A stretch of 64,000 nt of DNA from Siphonodentalium dalli (lineage: Eukaryota; Mollusca; Scaphopoda; Gadilida; Siphonodentaliidae): contig CP136061.1 of the NCBI GenBank assembly GCA_032622095.1, positions 6,768,734 to 6,832,733 on the forward strand, read 5' to 3'. Position 1 is the stretch's first letter. Each line of letters begins with the position of its first letter. The notes beneath the pieces were generated by a model. The model was not told the origin of the DNA. It was given only the letters and a program-made list of their open reading frames with translations, and did no database searches. Positions 1 through 64,000 of the stretch are shown here, piece by piece. The translations under genes and the position numbers were made by a program.

Positions 1-120
1 CGATTAACATCAAATATGGCAACGAGGTTATCTAACTTGTATTTACTGCTGAACGCCATGGCTTCCCAGATTGAACCCTCTGCACTCTCACCATCACCAA
101 TCAAACAGTAGGTACGATAA
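1..120 (-). CDS. TKT: Transketolase, coding exon 5 (continues past the left edge)
   Basis: The minus-strand translation is [20 protein letters not shown] followed by [20 protein letters not shown], continuing off the window. This is the TKT region with the GDGE.SEGSVWEA metal and thiamine-diphosphate binding motif (GDG...N family signature) and LDNLVAI(L/F)D.NR. The acceptor ctttcag ends at 121, and the exon's first T completes an Asp codon from exon 4. The 40 bp spanning this acceptor are the unit of a 28-copy array that continues upstream. Only this acceptor, the last one met by the transcript, leads into an open exon. About 450 further residues, including the Pyr and C-terminal domains, must lie to the left of the window. 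Confidence 0.95.
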
Positions 121-1241
121 CTGAAAGAGATATTAACCGATCAAACAGTAGGTACGATAACTGAAAGATATATTAACCGATCAAACAGTAGGTACGATAA
201 CTGAAAGAGATATTAACCAATCAAACAGTAGGTACGATAACTGAAAGAGATATTAACCAATCAAACAGTAGGTGCGATAACTGAAAGAGATATTAACCAA
301 TCAAACAGTAGGTATAATAACTGAAAGAGATATTAACCAATCAAACAGTAGGTACGATAACTGAAAGAGATATTAACCAATCAAACAGTAGGTACGATAA
401 CTGAAAGAGATATTAACCGATCAAACAGTAGGAACAATAACTGAAAGAGATATTAACCAATCAAACAGTAGGTACGATAACTGAAAGAGATATTAACCGA
501 TCAAACAGTAGGAACAATAACTGAAAGAGATATTAACCAATCAAACAGTAGGTACGATAACTGAAAGAGATATTAACCGATCAAACAGTAGGAACAATAA
601 CTGAAAGAGATATTAACCAATCAAACAGTAGGTACGATAACTGAAAGAGATATTAACCGATCAAACAGTAGGTACGATAACTGAAAGAGATATTAACCGA
701 TCAAACAGTAGGTACGATAACTGAAAGATATATTAACCGATCAAACAGTAGGTACGATAACTGAAAGAGATATTAACCAATCAAACAGTAGGTACGATAA
801 CTGAAAGAGATATTAACCAATCAAACAGTAGGTGCGATAACTGAAAGAGATATTAACCAATCAAACAGTAGGTATAATAACTGAAAGAGATATTAACCAA
901 TCAAACAGTAGGTACGATAACTGAAAGAGATATTAACCAATCAAACAGTAGGTACGATAACTGAAAGAGATATTAACCGATCAAACAGTAGGAACAATAA
1001 CTGAAAGAGATATTAACCAATCAAACAGTAGGTACGATAACTGAAAGAGATATTAACCGATCAAACAGTAGGAACAATAACTGAAAGAGATATTAACCAA
1101 TCAAACAGTAGGTACGATAACTGAAAGAGATATTAACCAATCAAACAGTAGGTGCGATAGCTGAAAGAGATATTAACCAATCAAACAGTAGGTATGATAA
1201 CTGAAAGAGATATTAACCAATCAAACAGTAGGTACAATGAA
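101..1241. repeat. 40-bp minisatellite built from the TKT exon 5 splice acceptor (28 full units)
   Basis: Units of exactly 40 bp start every 40 bases from 101, with a partial unit at 1221-1241. In transcript orientation each holds the tail of intron 4, the acceptor ctttcag and the first 23 bases of exon 5 (TTATCGTACCTACTGTTTGA...). Point variants (ggtgcg, ggtata, ggaaca, gatata) recur in the same order 560 bp apart (141 onward versus 701 onward). This implies a 14-unit segmental duplication on top of single-unit growth. Confidence 0.95.
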
Positions 1242-2879
1242 TGAAATACAATGTGAAAAGTAAAATTAGATATAACCATTTTAGTTCAGGCCAAATAAAA
1301 TAATACCTTTGTTTCCTGTTAAGGAGGACAAAATAAATTAGGGTTGGGAAGGGGGGGGTAATTTTTTTTTTTTTTTTTTTTTATAAATTCCCATAATGCA
1401 CAAGGTAATAACAGCCCTTAATGTATTGTAGATACAGGTATGCTATGAATATAGTCTATCTGGATAAAATTTTGTGATGAACTCGCAAGGCACTGTATTT
1501 TATATTCTTTAATTTAAGATTTTATTTATCATATGGCCTGGCAATAACAGGAGTCAGACCACTTTGTGCAAATCTCGCATATTGGAGACTGTCGAATGTT
1601 TTGTCTTAGGGAAGCTTTCACCACACGATTACCTTCCCCATATCGGACACAAACATAAGCTCGGCCATCACCAGAACCATAGTATGCCAACTCTAGAGGA
1701 TCAGACAGGGATAATCTTGAGTGTTTTTGGGAAAGGGTCCGGAGCCCATGCAATTAGGAAAAATAGATACCTTGTGGGGTAATTGGGAATTTTCGAATTG
1801 AAATAATGACACTATCAAATGAATTTAAAAAATAAGATGTTTAAAACTTAATGAACTAATGAATAAAACAAGTGTATATTCCAGCTCATACTAAGTCTGA
1901 GACAGTATCTCTAAAAAATCTAATACATGACATGTACAAACCAGCTCATACTAAGTCAATACCTCCATAAATCTGATATATACTTTATTCTAGTACATGT
2001 AGTTGAAATTATTATATACAAAGTATAGTCAGGACTATTATATATGATTCTTGGTATAAGTTAGTACATGCATGTAGAATTCCATAATAACATGTTGCAT
2101 TAAAGCATGAGTTCCCTTCCTGTATGTGAACAATATTCAACCTGCTAAAAAAATCCCACCTCCCTGCACCTTCCCACAAATCATGTTTCATCCAATTTTC
2201 ATATTAGAGTTACATGCTTCAGTGCTATCAGAAAATTTAACAACAGATTGTTGATAATTTGTATGAAACAATCAATAGCCATATTTGTACAAAGCCATTT
2301 AATTTCTATTAATCAACACCGCTAAACATATCAAATTGAGTTACTAAACATTATTCCATACCTATAACTCTAAAATACTTCGGGTTAAAGTTGCCTATTT
2401 TCGAGGAATCATGTTTTTGGATGTTTGTTAGCCCACTAACCCCATTTTGGTGTGTTTTGTGAGCGTGATTTTGCAAGTTAATTAGGCTAATTACTCATTG
2501 AATTAAAATCAGCAACTTATACTAATAGAAACTGAAAGAATAATGTCAAGTTGGGAGAATGAAATTGGGAACTTCGAAATTTATTTTATTTTGAAAATAA
2601 AAGTTGTTTTGGTAGGCCATTTGGCGAATGGGTTACAATAAACAAAGGTGTTATTTTCTTTTAGGCCTTATAGTACTCAAGCTTTAAATTAAACTTAGTT
2701 GTTGCTCACCAAGGTACAAAATATGTTGAAATACAAGATAATTTGGACCATTTATGATAAGGAAACACTCGTTATAATGAAGAGATAGAATTACTGCCTC
2801 ACAAAGACAATATGGGTCCCTTTAATCTTAGCATTTAACAACAAAGAGAGTTCTCTGTTAGTTTATCCCGTAATTGAGT
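1242..2879. other. TKT intron 4, mostly featureless
   Basis: AT-rich sequence with a G run and a T run (about 1348-1382), and a short duplication of ccagctcatactaagtc (about 1881 and 1941). A 74-codon minus-strand ORF at 1529-1753 has no recognised family. No other structure is supported. Confidence 0.6.
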
Positions 2880-3309: not shown

Positions 3310-3407
3310 TCTGATTGGTCAATGTATTTGCCTGTGTACGCCATACCAGCTCCCACGCTGAGACCCTGGCCAAGAGATCCGGTCGCTACATCGATATAAG
3401 TCTGACG
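3310..3407 (-). CDS. TKT: Transketolase, coding exon 4
   Basis: The minus-strand translation is RQTYIDVATGSLGQGL followed by SVGAGMAYTGKYIDQS. It contains the invariant TGSLGQGL motif that lines the thiamine-diphosphate site in transketolases. The acceptor tttcag lies just above 3407. An alternative AG six bases further in would drop two residues, but the upstream site gives the family's exact spacing after GHPTP. The donor is gtacgt starting at 3309, leaving GA. With the first T of the next exon this gives Asp and restores frame (QSD|YRTYC). Length is 98 bp. A partial copy of its 3' end lies at 2880-2939. Confidence 0.94.
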
Positions 3408-3583
3408 CTGAAACGAAATATGTCATCAATATTAAACTCGGATGCTGAAATAAGATGTCATCAACATAACGTTTGAAACAAAACATATCACGTTTAAAAC
3501 TTAACTCAAGCTCCAAGTTATCAACAATTAAAGATTTAGAAAGGTCTGTTGATTAGGGCTGCAATGATATCATTGGTCACGAT

Positions 3584-6059: not shown

Positions 6060-6182
6060 CAGGTGCCTGTCATTGGCAGAATGAGGTCCCCAGGGGTGAA
6101 TTTGGGGATGCTAGCCCGCTAAATTCACCCTCTGGGGACCTCATTCTGCAAATGACAGGCACCTTATTCTCAGGCCTGGAAG
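6060..6182. mobile_element. Family H hairpin (single-hairpin copy)
   Basis: A near-perfect palindrome with arms cagaatgaggtccccaggg and complement, bounded by caggtgcctgtcatt at the left and its complement at the right. It lies 70 bp from TKT exon 3 in intron 3. Confidence 0.8.
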
Positions 6183-6249: not shown

Positions 6250-6363
6250 TGGGGTAGGATGTCCCTCCAATTCACTGTCAATCTTACGTAGATTAGTCAG
6301 CTCCTCAATCGGAATGACACCAGCTTCGGCCCAGGCAGCATATAGAACCGGAGCGGCATGACC
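6250..6363 (-). CDS. TKT: Transketolase, coding exon 3
   Basis: The minus-strand translation starts [18 protein letters not shown] and ends [13 protein letters not shown]. It corresponds to the TKT stretch GHAAPILYAVWAEAG...LRKI.SDLDGHPVP, including the conserved SKGHAAP His region (the SK comes from exon 2). The acceptor ttttag ends at 6364 and the donor gtaagt starts at 6249. The exon is 114 bp, exactly 38 codons, phase 0 on both sides. Its 5' half and acceptor are repeated several times just upstream in the transcript (6390-6880). This copy is the only one that runs full length in frame into a good donor, so I take it as the real exon. Confidence 0.95.
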
Positions 6364-6880
6364 CTAAAAAAATACATAATAGTAAATATATAGAACCCTA
6401 AATCGGATTGACACCGGCCTCGGCCCAGGCAGCGTATATAACCGGAGCGGCATGACCCTAAATAATACATAATAGTAAATATATAGAATCCTACATGTAA
6501 ATCGAAATGACACCGGCCTCGGCCCAGGCAGCGTATAGAACCGGAGCGGCATGACCCTAAATAATACATAATAGTAAATATATGGAATCCTAAATTGGAA
6601 CGACTCCAGCCAATCTTACGTAGATTAGTCAGCTCCTCAATCGGAATGACACCAGCTTCAGCCCAGGCAGCGTATTGAACAGGAGCGACATGACCCTAAA
6701 TAATACATAATAGTAAATATATAGAATCCTAAATCGAAATGACACCAGCCTCGGACCAGGCAGCGTATAGAACCGGAGCGGCATGACCCTAAATAATACA
6801 TAATAGTAAATATATAGAATCCTAAATCGGAATGACACCAGCTTCGGCCCAGGCAGCATATAGAACAGGAGCGGGAACAA
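6364..6880 (-). repeat. TKT: Tandem copies of the TKT exon 3 acceptor and 5' half
   Basis: About five units of roughly 92-97 bp. In transcript order each carries an AT-rich intron tail, the acceptor tttag and a copy of the first ~55 bases of exon 3 (GGTCATGCCGCTCCGGTTCT...). Most units end the homology with ATT TAG, an in-frame stop. The unit at about 6604-6696 extends to 92 exon bases before diverging. More decayed copies occur near 7615-7680, 7702-7745 and 8050-8095. Confidence 0.9.
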
Positions 6881-7602: not shown

Positions 7603-7739
7603 ATATAGAACCCTAAATCGGAATGACACCAGCCTAGGCCTAGGCCCAGGCCGCATATAAAACAGGAGTGGCATGTCCCTACAAAAACATCAACAGTATA
7701 AATTTAGAGTCATCAATCGTGATTACACCAGAGTCAGCG

Positions 7740-8689: not shown

Positions 8690-8724
8690 TGGATGGTAAT
8701 TATAGTTCGAGCCTCACCTTGGTA
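8690..8724 (-). repeat. TKT: Duplicate of the TKT exon 2 donor region
   Basis: gagcctcaccttgg and adjoining taattatagttc repeat the sequence over the true donor (8766-8779), 56 bp downstream in the transcript. It keeps a gtgagg donor. Using it would add 56 bases and shift the frame. Confidence 0.8.
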
Positions 8725-8773
8725 CATTGTATATGTACATGGATGAACATGGTAATTTTAGTTTGAGCCTCAC

Positions 8774-8891
8774 CTTGGAGAGAATGAAGCGATCGTTGGC
8801 TGCATTCCTCACTTCCTCGATCGAGTACCTCATCACTTTGAAGAAGAGAACTGACATTATCTCCGCCATAGAACAGCATGATGTCGGATGT
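8774..8891 (-). CDS. TKT: Transketolase, coding exon 2
   Basis: The minus-strand translation includes [17 protein letters not shown] and ends NDRFILSK. This aligns almost residue for residue with the animal TKT segment carrying the conserved GHPTSCCSxAEIMAVLFF motif of the thiamine-diphosphate domain (family knowledge). The acceptor is tttttag ending at 8892, and the donor is gtgagg starting at 8773. The 118-bp length (1+117) takes up the split Gly codon from exon 1 and returns to phase 0. Codons are intact with no frameshift, so I read it as functional. The donor motif occurs a second time 56 bp further into the intron (8711-8724), listed separately. Confidence 0.96.
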
Positions 8892-12302: not shown

Positions 12303-12577
12303 AACATCCATTACCCTGCAGGGAGCCCGACACATATATAGAAGCATATAGAAAAGTGTCGTCTGCTCATGTTTGTCTGGGGCTCTGTATGGGTGAAATT
12401 ATAAAATTGTTAAAGAATACAAGAAAAAATTATTAAAATTGTAAAAAATTGTTAGGCCAATGCATTCTCTTATATATGCGAGGCGACCTATGGTCGACTC
12501 GCATATATAAGAGAATGCATTGGCACAGGGTAAAAAAAATCCCGACTTCCGACTGGATTTGATATGGCGGGTCACAT
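12303..12577. mobile_element. Composite of family P3-like end, AT spacer and hairpin module
   Basis: Starts taccctgcagggagcccg with P3-type internal sequence (gtgtcgtctgctcatg), then aaattgttaaagaata and a perfect ~70-bp palindrome (12452-12526), then cacagggta. The same order appears inverted at 22985-23222. H-core sequence (ccaaattggcagacgacac) follows. Confidence 0.65.
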
Positions 12578-30372: not shown

Positions 30373-30479
30373 CCCGAATTGCTGGCATTGGTTGCGCGTA
30401 TGCTGTGAATACGTAATTTGTTAGCAATGTCTTTCAATTCTTGCAGCATCCTTGCATCGGGTCGGTGATAATCTGTCAT
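30373..30479 (-). CDS. TKT: Transketolase, coding exon 1 (start codon to phase-2 donor)
   Basis: Transketolase is a cytosolic thiamine-diphosphate enzyme that moves two-carbon units between sugar phosphates in the non-oxidative pentose phosphate pathway. Read on the minus strand, the exon starts [20 protein letters not shown] and ends ...[14 protein letters not shown]. This matches the animal TKT N-terminus (MADYHKPDQQKLQALKD...; family knowledge). The ATG is at 30479-30477. A gtaagt donor begins at 30372 and leaves GG of a split Gly codon, which the first base of the exon at 8774-8891 completes (SG|HPTS). Length is 107 bp, 35 codons plus two bases. I chose this start because it gives the family N-terminus at the expected distance from the HPTS motif. 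No upstream in-frame extension looks conserved. Confidence 0.95.
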
Positions 30480-36802: not shown

Positions 36803-38925
36803 GGGCCGGGCTTACTGAAACCACCCACCCACCGGGCTTGGTATCCTGGAATGTTTTCGCGACCCCCTAATATTTAGAAACCACCCATGCATGCATGCAC
36901 CCACGGGCTTGGTATCCTGGAATGTTTTCGCGACCCCCTAATAGTTAGAAACCACCCACCCACCGGGCTTGGTATCCTGGAATGTTTTCGCGACCCCCTA
37001 ATATTTAGAAACCACCCACCCACGGGCTTGGTATCCTGGAATGTTTTCGCGACCCCCTAATATTTAGAAACCACCCACCCACGGGCTTGGTATACTGGAA
37101 TGTTTTCGCGACCCCCTATAATATTACAGAAACCACCCACCCACGGGCTTCGTATCCTGGAATGTTTTCGCGACCCCCTAATATTTAGAAACCACCCACC
37201 ACGGGCTTCGTATCCTGGAATGTTTTCGCGACCCCCTAATATTTAGAAACCACCCACCCACGGGCTTGGTATACTGGAATGTTTTCGCGACCCCCTATAA
37301 TATTACAGAAACCACCCACCCACGGGCTTCGTATCCTGGAATGTTTTCGCGACCCCCTAATATTTAGAAACCACCCACCCACCGGGCTTGGTATCCTGGA
37401 ATGTTTTCGCGACCCCCTAATATTTAGAAACCACCCACCCACGGGCTTGGTATCCTGGAATGTTTTCGCGACCCCCTAATATTTAGAAACCACCCACCCA
37501 CGGGCTTGGTATCCTGGAATGTTTTCGCGACCCCCTAATATTTAGAAACCACCCACCCACGGGCTTGGTATACTGGAATGTTTTCGCGACCCCCTATAAT
37601 ATTACAGAAACCACCCACCCACGGGCTTCGTATCCTGGAATGTTTTCGCGACCCCCTAATATTTAGAAACCACCCACCACGGGCTTCGTATCCTGGAATG
37701 TTTTCGCGACCCCCTAATATTTAGAAACCACCCACCCACGGGCTTGGTATACTGGAATGTTTTCGCGACCCCCTATAATATTACAGAAACCACCCACCCA
37801 CGGGCTTCGTATCCTGGAATGTTTTCGCGACCCCCTAATATTTAGAAACCACCCACCCACCGGGCTTGGTATCCTGGAATGTTTTCGCGACCCCCTAATA
37901 TTTAGAAACCACCCACCCACGGGCTTGGTATCCTGGAATGTTTTCGCGACCCCCTAATATTTAGAAACCACCCACCCACGGGCTTGGTATACTGGAATGT
38001 TTTCGCGACCCCCTATAATATTACAGAAACCACCCACCCACGGGCTTCGTATCCTGGAATGTTTTCGCGACCCCCTAATATTTAGAAACCACCCACCCAC
38101 GGGCTTGGTATACTGGAATGTTTTCGCGACCCCCTAATATTTAGAAACCACCCACCCACGGGCTTGGTATCCTGGAATGTTTTCGCGACCCCCTAATATT
38201 TAGAAACCACCCACCCACGGGCTTGGTATACTGGAATGTTTTCGCGACCCCCTATAATATTACAGAAACCACCCACCCACGGGCTTCGTATCCTGGAATG
38301 TTTTCGCGACCCCCTAATATTTAGAAACCACCCACCACGGGCTTCGTATCCTGGAATGTTTTCGCGACCCCCTAATATTTAGAAACCACCCACCCACGGG
38401 CTTGGTATACTGGAATGTTTTCGCGACCCCCTATAATATTACAGAAACCACCCACCCACGGGCTTCGTATCCTGGAATGTTTTCGCGACCCCCTAATAGT
38501 TAGAAACCACCCACCCACCGGGCTTGGTATCATGGAATGTTTTCGCGACCCCCTAATATTTAGAAACCACCCATGCACCCACCGGGCTTGGTATCCTGGA
38601 ATGTTTTCGCGACCCCCTAATAGTTAGAAACCACCCACCCACCGGGCTTGGTATCCTGGAATGTTTTCGCGACCCCCTAATATTTAGAAACCACCCACCC
38701 ACTGGGCTTGGTATCCTGGAATGTTTTCGCGACCCCCTAATATTTAGAAACCACCCACCCACGGGTTTGGTATCCTGGAATGTTTTCGCGACCCCCTAAT
38801 ATTTAGAAACCACCCACCCACGGGTTTGGTATCCTGGAATGTTTTCGCGACCCCCTAATATTTAGAAACCACCCACCCACGGGCTTGGTATCCTGGAATG
38901 TTTTCGCGACCCCCAATATTTAGGA
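36803..38925. repeat. 59-60-bp satellite, about 35 units with higher-order structure
   Basis: The unit contains ccacccacccacgggcttgg, tatcctggaatgttttcgcg and accccctaatatttagaaa. Variants (tatactgg, ataatattacag, gcttcg) repeat in the same order with a 478-bp offset (37236 versus 37714). A truncated hairpin arm (36774-36802) forms the left junction. Confidence 0.93.
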
Positions 38926-39011: not shown

Positions 39012-39081
39012 GATATGATATGATATGATATGATATGATATGATATGATATGATATGATATGATATGATATGATATGATAT
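39012..39081. repeat. (ATATG)n microsatellite
   Basis: About 13 uninterrupted copies of atatg/tgata. Confidence 0.92.
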
Positions 39082-43949: not shown

Positions 43950-44354
43950 CAAGCCTTGAAATAGTGTGCCTGTCATTTGCAGAATGAGGTCCCCAGAGGA
44001 TGAATTTAGTGATGCTACCCCGCATAGCGGGCTAGCATCACCAAATTCAACCTCTGGGGACCTCATTCTGTTTACAACTCAGCAGAATGAGGTTCCCAGA
44101 GGGTGAATTTGGTGATGCTAGCCCGCTATGTGGGGTAGCATCACTAAATGCACCCTCTGGGGACCTCATTCTGCAAATGACAGGCACACTATTTGCAGGT
44201 TTTCTCCTACTCCAGTAAGTGAAATAACTCATGAATGTTTTATATGTAACCCACAGGGAGCCTCACACAGATGGATGAATGCACCACAGAGTGTTGTCTG
44301 CTCCAGTCTGTGGGGGGGCTCCCTATGGGTTCAAGCACACTATTTCAAGGCTTG
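43950..44354. mobile_element. Family H element with 8-bp TSD TCCATTGG and P3 insertion
   Basis: CAAGCCTTGAAATAG at the left and CTATTTCAAGGCTTG at the right, flanked by TCCATTGG (43942-43949, 44355-44362). It contains two hairpins and a P3 element (about 44250-44335). Confidence 0.85.
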
Positions 44355-46790: not shown

Positions 46791-47187
46791 AAGAAATGAA
46801 TATAGTGGGTGTGTGTGTTATTGGGGGATCAAGCCTTGAAATAGGGTGTCTGTCATTTGCAGAATGAGGTCCCCAGAGGGTGAATTTAGCGATGCTACCC
46901 TGCATAGCGGGCTAGCATCACCAAATTCACCCTCTGGGAACCTCATTCTGCTGAGGTGTAAGCAGAATGAGGTCCCCAGAGGGTGAATTTGGTGATGCTA
47001 ACCTGCTATGCGGGGTAGCATCACTAAATTCACCCTCTGGGGACCTCATTCTGCAAATGACAGACACCATATTTCAAGGCTTGTGGGGGATACACCGCTC
47101 TGGTCGTTAGGGCATATTTAGGGAGGACCGTTCTACCACAGTACCCTATCCCCCAATAAGACACACACCCACTACATTCATTTCTTA
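46791..47187. mobile_element. Inverted repeat element split by a family H insertion
   Basis: aagaaatgaatatagtgggt and its complement form the ends. The H element 46830-47083 lies inside. Confidence 0.75.
46830..47083. mobile_element. Family H element with 8-bp TSD TGGGGGAT
   Basis: CAAGCCTTGAAATAGGG to ATATTTCAAGGCTTG. TGGGGGAT lies at 46822-46829 and 47084-47091. Two hairpins are joined by a short linker, without the long core of other copies. Confidence 0.9.
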
Positions 47188-61799: not shown

Positions 61800-64000
61800 A
61801 CGTGTTATCCTACTCACAAGATGTTATCCTACTCTCAAGATGTTATCCTACTCTCAAGATGTTATCCTACTCTCAAGATGTTATCCTACTCTCAAGATGT
61901 TATCCTACTCTCCAGATGTTATCCTACTCTCAAGATGTTATCCTACTCTCAAGATGTTATCCTACTCACAAGATGTTATCCTACTCTCAAGATGTTATCC
62001 CACTCTCAAGATGTTATCCCACTCTCAAGATGTTATCCCACTCTCAAGATGTTATCCTACTCTCATGATGCTATCCTACTCTCAAGATGTTATCCTACTC
62101 CCATGATGTTATCCTACTCTCATGATGTTATCCTATACTCTCAGGATGTTATCCTATACTCTCATGATGTTATCCTATAATCTCAGGATGTTATCCTACT
62201 CCCATGATGTTATCCTACTCTCATGATGTTATCCTATACTCTCAGGATGTTATCCTACTCCCATGATGTTATCCTACTCTCATGATGTTATCCTATACTC
62301 TCAGGATGTTATCCTACTCTCATGATGTTATCCTATACTCCCAGGATGTTATCCTACTCCCATGATGTTATCCTACTCTCATGATGTTATCCTATACTCT
62401 CAGGATGTTATCCTACTCCCATGATGTTATCCTACTCTCATGATGTTATCCTATACTCTCAGGATGTTATCCTACTCTCATGATGTTATCCTACTCTCAT
62501 GATGTTATCCTATACTCTCAGGATGTTATCCTACTCTCATGATGTTATCCTATACTCTCAGGATGTTATCCTACTCTCATGATGTTATCCTACTCTCATG
62601 ATGTTATCCTATACTCTCAGGATGTTATCCTACTCGCATGATGTTATCCTATACTCTCAAGATGTTATCCTACTCTCATGATGTTATCCTATACTCTCAG
62701 GATGTTATCCTACTCTCATGATGTTATCCTATACTCTCAGGATGTTATCCTACTCTCATGATGTTATCCTATACTCTCAGGATGTTATCCTACTCTCATG
62801 ATGTTATCCTATACTCTCAGGATGTTATCCTACTCTCATGATGTTATCCTATACTCTCAAGATGTTATCCTACTCATGATGTTATCCTATACTCTCAGGA
62901 TGTTATCCTACTCTCAAGATGTTATCCTACTCTCATGATGTTATCCTATACTCTCAGGATGTTATCCTACTCTCATGATGTTATCCTATACTCTCAAGAT
63001 GTTATCCTACTCTCATGATGTTATCCTATACTCTCAAGATGTTATCCTACTCTCATGATGTTATCCTATACTCTCAGGATGTTATCCTACTCTCAGGATG
63101 TTATCCTACTCTCATGATGTTATCCTATACTCTCAGGATGTTATCCTACTCTCATGATGTTATCCTATACTCTCAGGATGTTATCCTATACTCTCAGGAT
63201 GTTATCCTACTCTCATGATGTTATCCTATACTCTCAGGATGTTATCCTACTCTCATGATGTTATCCTATACTCTCAGGATGTTATCCTACTCTCAAGATG
63301 TTATCCTACTCTCATGATGTTATCCTATACTCTCAGGATGTTATCCTACTCTCAAGATGTTATCCTATACTCTCAAGATGTTATCCTACTCTCATGATGT
63401 TATCCTATACTCTCAAGATGTTATCCTACTCTCATGATGTTATCCTATACTCTCAATATGTTATCATACTCTCATGATGTTATCCTATACTCTCAAGATG
63501 TTATCCTACTCTCATGATGTTATCCTATACTCAGGATGTTATCCTACTCTCAGGATGTTATCCTATACTCTCATGATGTTATCCTATACTCTCAGGATGT
63601 TATCCTACTCTCATGATGTTATCCTATACTCTCAAGATGTTATCCTATACTCTCAGGATGTTATCCTACTCTCATGATGTTATCCTATACTCTCAGGATG
63701 TTATCCTACTCTCATGATATCCTATACTCTCAAGATGTTATCCTACTCTCATGATGTTATCCTATACTCTCATGATGTTATCCTACTCTCAGGATGTTAT
63801 CCTATACTCTCATGATGTTATCCTACTCTCATGATGTTATCCTATACTCTCAGGATGTTATCCTACTCTCATGATGTTATCCTATACTCTCAAGATGTTA
63901 TCCTACTCTCATGATGTTATCCTATACTCTCAAGATGTTATCCTACTCTCATGATGTTATCCTATACTCTCAGGATGTTATCCTACTCTCAAGATGTTAT
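61800..64000 (+). repeat. 19/21-bp minisatellite running off the right edge
   Basis: gatgttatcctactctcaa (19 bp) alone fills the first ~300 bp. After that, 19-bp and 21-bp (atcctatactctcaggatgtt) units alternate as ~40-bp dimers. More than 100 units are visible. Frames are open but meaningless. Confidence 0.93.

Follow-up and report, generated by a model that had tools for sequence, protein, structure and literature searches.

How is the correct acceptor of an exon chosen when it is one of 28 near-identical copies lying head-to-tail? The question is raised by the transketolase (TKT) gene in the window, by which we mean the whole stretch of 64,000 nucleotides that was analysed. TRF finds a single array at 96-1246 with a period of 40, 28.8 copies, 94% matches and a score of 2064, and placed in register it comprises 28 full 40-bp units running head-to-tail over 101-1220 (101-1240 counting the shared edge), with starts at 101, 141 and so on to 1181, in agreement with the 28-copy, 40-bp array that the preliminary description had placed at 101-1241. 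Read on the minus strand, the unit is TTGGTTAATATCTCTTTCAG/TTATCGTACCTACTGTTTGA, in which some 17 nt from the end of intron 4 (…CTCTTTCAG) are joined to some 23 nt from the start of TKT exon 5. The array is composed of:

101-140, minus strand: unit 0, the last array unit, holding the authentic exon 5 acceptor with its boundary at 121/120 (unit register and frame)
141-1220, minus strand: the 27 units of 40 bp lying upstream, all of which contain a decoy acceptor TTTCAG (TRF and unit register; AG in 27/27)
1221-1260, minus strand: a 29th unit that has decayed, at the 5' edge of the array as transcribed, exon-derived part retained and AG gone (12 mismatches)

Every one of the 28 full units differs from the consensus at 0-2 positions, with an exact match in 7/28, and an 18-nt intron piece is common to 26/28 units and TCTTTCAG to 28/28. 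AG is present in 28/28 full units and absent from the decayed 29th. The interior of the array is homogenised, whereas the intron-side edge unit has diverged; on the exon side, unit 0 is undiverged and identical to seven other units. The variants also recur in order, in that units 0-10 are repeated without change as units 14-24, an identity that does not extend to units 11-13 and 25-27, and the self-identity of the array is 0.9875 at a lag of 560 bases, compared with 0.948-0.967 at the 16 other lags tested (multiples of 40 from 40 to 680). Together, the unit order and the identity at lag 560 argue for a late event in which 11 or more units were duplicated together, with an offset of 14 units, more likely in the genome than in the assembly. 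A structured RNA is unsupported as an explanation of the array, given that five units (101-300) fold at z = -1.31, with 23 of 200 shuffles as good, and that Rfam gave no match within the window.

The exon part of the unit is continuous with a coding sequence whose identity is clear. On the minus strand of 1-119, 39/39 residues align to PDB transketolase chains (best E 6.5e-16), the best entries probably being human, and the fragment scores 25.8 bits against Pfam PF00456, where the cut-off is 22. The other TKT exons were located by tblastn with a transketolase query, and their boundaries were set from splice signals and phase:

1-120, minus strand: TKT coding exon 5, 5' part, running off the window (PDB alignment, Pfam, frame with exon 4)
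3310-3407, minus strand: TKT exon 4, ending in GA at 3310, with the donor GTACGT from 3309 (frame and donor signal)
6250-6363, minus strand: TKT exon 3 (tblastn, frame)
8774-8891, minus strand: TKT exon 2 (tblastn, sequence, frame)
30373-30479, minus strand: first coding exon of TKT, ATG at 30479 (tblastn, sequence, frame)

Joined, exons 1-5 form one open frame across introns of 21481, 2410, 2842 and 3189 nt, and the window edge cuts the gene 120 bases into exon 5, so that the remainder is not included. The alignment of 1-119 and the open frame bear out the exon boundary given earlier at 120/121, and the unit register, the PDB match and the frame likewise uphold the earlier reading of the units as copies of the TKT intron 4/exon 5 junction. 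Hence the array is supported as an amplified form of that acceptor, on the sequence as it stands; the numbering of intron 4 and exon 5 holds if TKT has no upstream non-coding exon. A Pfam scan for other genes gave 0 matches in 71 stop-to-stop segments within the window, hand-picked from the 150 longest of 193 (at least 58 aa), from which segments in ten large arrays or with common-repeat peptides had been removed by script. In a further Pfam scan the exon 5 fragment matched and nine other segments, including TKT exon 4, did not; since a true exon is among the latter, short exons escape a segment-based scan of this kind.

Other repeats lie in and around the gene. A very frequent palindromic element between 9266 and 53259 (for example 12455-12511) looks like a miniature inverted-repeat transposon; its 20-mer GCATTCTCTTATATATGCGA is present 29 times, counting both strands, in nine clusters more than 2 kb apart. 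The word GAATGAGGTCCCCAGAG occurs 21 times on both strands over 6130-59043 (for example 43979-44173 and 46859-47054), and near 6075-6148 it forms a fold-back just past the TKT exon 3 donor. TRF also reports a 59-bp array of about 34 copies at 36898-38923, which in the direction of the gene precedes the first TKT coding exon, a perfect (GATAT)14 array at 39012-39081, and a 19/40-bp array (about 111 or 56 copies) at 61803-64000 that runs to the window end. Repeat words taken from the window had no match in collections of genome contigs and viral contigs, which do not comprise animal genomes as such, or in the text of papers; some of the repeats look like ones associated with molluscs, a likeness that amounts to no test of the host.

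The reading frame separates the 28 acceptors. Only the unit 0 acceptor (120/121), 1/28, keeps the frame open after exon 4, and the other 27/27 lead to a TAA nine codons into the exon, each decoy reading giving Y-x-x-YCLIG and then the stop, with x differing by unit. The frame thus supports the view that the last acceptor is required for a coding transcript. The preliminary description had stated that the transcript must use it, and the frame gives good reason for this; use of unit 0 in the animal is what we infer from the need for a working enzyme, rather than something seen. That description had also placed 28 acceptors in front of the exon: the 28 units stand, but the authentic acceptor is one of them and what lies upstream is 27 units and a decayed one. 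As the unit of the real acceptor is identical to decoy units, it appears that local sequence cannot mark the right site. The mark would more probably be adjacency to exon 5 and to the downstream donor. In exon definition, an acceptor is chosen through pairing with the exon's own donor, and we propose that the exon-proximal acceptor is picked in this way, by pairing with the exon 5 donor outside the window. It should be noted that the unit 1 acceptor, if used, would extend exon 5 by just 40 nt.

Exon 5 is not the only TKT exon with repeats at its junction, and the following features were found on the same strand:

6307-6874, minus strand: second array, spanning the exon 3 acceptor (TRF, tblastn, sequence)
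7616-7678, minus strand: decayed copy, separate from the array, of the exon 3 acceptor with the beginning of its exon, giving a stop if used (tblastn, sequence)
8694-8778, minus strand: exon 2 donor region present in two copies (8778-8750 and 8722-8694), 27/29 aligned bases identical
3404-3470, minus strand: weak case (score 34) of a two-copy duplication, now decayed, at the exon 4 acceptor

In the exon 3 array, which lies beyond the positions covered by the preliminary description, the acceptor TTTAG/GGTCATG stands at 6363 (authentic), 6457, 6556, 6695 and 6788, with spacings of 94, 99, 139 and 93, and an additional partial copy at 6825-6872 is without the intron part. A stop follows from 5/5 of the exon 3 decoys tested, in four cases within 22 codons and for the 6695 copy after a longer read-through. 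The exon 2 donor and exon 4 acceptor duplications are weak cases, because 178 and 301 of 1500 random positions respectively match as well: the former count is of TKT-span positions scoring equally high, and the latter of positions with a neighbour at least as similar, while the exon 4 score of 34 was reached by 4/2000 single-base shuffles and 5/2989 TKT-intron stretches. In the same neighbour scan, 34 of the 1500 random positions did as well as the exon 5 acceptor and 75 as well as the exon 3 acceptor; for the acceptors of exons 2 and 4 and for the donors of all four exons (those of exons 1 and 2 centred one base off) the number ran from 178 to 1073, and for the match beside the exon 4 donor, with a score of 35, it was 255. 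Array sequence makes up 21.7% of the window as a whole and 17.4% of the TKT span, and 2/8 TKT junctions fall within it, which is no excess, as 41% of 30480 circular shifts reach at least two (P about 0.41). A preference of arrays for splice junctions is therefore unsupported. At a locus this dense in arrays, their overlap with junctions needs no special cause, and acceptor arrays would be tolerated because new copies land on the intron side.

We now put forward an explanation that we hold with considerable confidence, namely that the exon 5 array is a nearly neutral minisatellite spanning an intron-exon boundary, of the type called a mirage, and that splicing goes to the exon-proximal acceptor. 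It would have begun as a tandem duplication of the TKT intron 4/exon 5 boundary and lengthened afterwards, in part when the 11 or more units noted above were repeated as a block, offset by 14 units. In a tandem duplication across an acceptor, all new copies would come to lie on the intron side and the last copy would stay joined to the intact exon, which would make the event nearly neutral provided that the exon-proximal acceptor is used. Transcripts made from other acceptors would carry the early stop and probably be removed by nonsense-mediated decay. The array is thus probably harmless, because its last, genuine copy is still usable by the cell. The near-identical units, the decayed edge, a frame open from unit 0 only, the second array at exon 3 and the published precedents support this reading. 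Against it, the decoys equal the real site in sequence, which leaves clean use of the last copy without a local explanation, and exon definition need not reject the longer exon 5 that the unit 1 acceptor would give.

These last points leave room for an array that acts on expression as a length-tuned decoy, where some transcripts would take an upstream acceptor, meet the TAA and be degraded, and array length would set TKT output; the preliminary description had suggested that length could influence splicing fidelity or TKT output. Consistent with this are the AG and shared early TAA in 27/27 upstream acceptors, the failure of unit sequence to separate real from decoy sites, and the stops from 5/5 exon 3 decoys. 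We nevertheless consider it unlikely, as stops are expected whenever intron sequence is read as exon, arrays are not in excess at junctions, and published mirages, as they are described, appeared not to disturb splicing (PMC3087553; PMC3902484). It is also quite doubtful that the array is a natural hypervariable attenuator, in which 27 equal acceptors would compete with the real one, any wrong choice would end in the shared early stop, and the transketolase level would be tuned as the copy number changes, whether by inheritance or in somatic cells; the exon 5 array would then also have the highest copy number among the mirages whose published copy numbers were compared, and might be a mirage from outside the lancelets.

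Inflation of the copies by the assembler is very improbable. One mirage is described as aberrantly assembled in a draft genome (PMC3087553), the exact copy number here may be wrong, and the exact 11-unit block repeat could be assembly-made, but the unit variants stand in nested order, one array edge is decayed, and TKT holds further junction repeats with other unit lengths. Least credible is the chance arrival at exon 5 of a mobile element or dispersed satellite: the window is indeed rich in repeats, yet the unit holds TKT coding sequence continuous with exon 5, the 40-bp TRF consensus occurs within the window solely at 96-1246, and tblastn gives the SYRTYCLIG peptide within the window solely at 1202 and below.

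TKT exon 5 offers a clean natural experiment on the way in which the spliceosome selects one acceptor from a set of identical ones. As there are 27 repeats of what lies upstream of the real site, position or signals of the downstream exon must mark the right acceptor, with every wrong choice leading to the identical early stop. Two boundary-spanning arrays also stand in this one housekeeping gene, at an array-dense locus, which fits the idea that boundary repeats form wherever minisatellites abound and could be a starting point for new introns.

Novelty of this kind of array is unsupported, as boundary-spanning minisatellites were already published as 'mirages' in amphioxus, in the genes for Adh3, globins, troponin C and PGBD5 (PMC3087553; PMC3902484), the PGBD5 mirage being added and troponin C cited in the latter source. 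By its sequence the exon 5 array shares their anatomy, so that the kind is known and the TKT instance new; if the host is not a lancelet, mirages would no longer be confined to the group for which those sources describe them. For the amphioxus mirages RT-PCR suggested regular splicing (PMC3087553), and those of Adh and troponin C are said to yield no aberrant mRNAs (PMC3902484). In literature searches confined to open-licence papers, none of the closest-matching papers contains the word transketolase, no transketolase case of a boundary repeat appeared in the titles and abstract openings listed, and no paper on acceptor competition was found. Tandem repeats and assembly errors are reported for amphioxus huntingtin (PMC2206037), boundary repeats not being mentioned in the part of that source drawn on here, and PMC2809761 concerns nonsense-mediated decay and intron gain.

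The likeness to the amphioxus mirages (Adh3; the globins BflGb6 and BflGb9; troponin C; PGBD5) lies in tandem units that span an exon-intron boundary, in a splice signal carried by many units (many, not all, in the published account; 28/28 here), and in a genuine copy at the exon with edge copies decayed or non-homogenised, decayed edge units being described for the globin mirages (PMC3087553). The difference is one of scale. TKT has 28 near-identical units of 40 bp, whereas BflGb6 has 6 and 3 copies of 150-160 bp units, the PGBD5 mirages have at most 7 units of 60 bp and 6 of 108 bp, and Adh3 units are 10-72 bp. Human internal tandem repeats in segmental duplications (PMC2812944) also place minisatellite units at exon-intron boundaries, on average four units of 30 bp, and are said to generate novel introns, and the model of intron gain by splice-site duplication (PMC3087553) would start from just such spare splice sites. 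Unlike either, the TKT array bears no evident sign of a new intron or exon.
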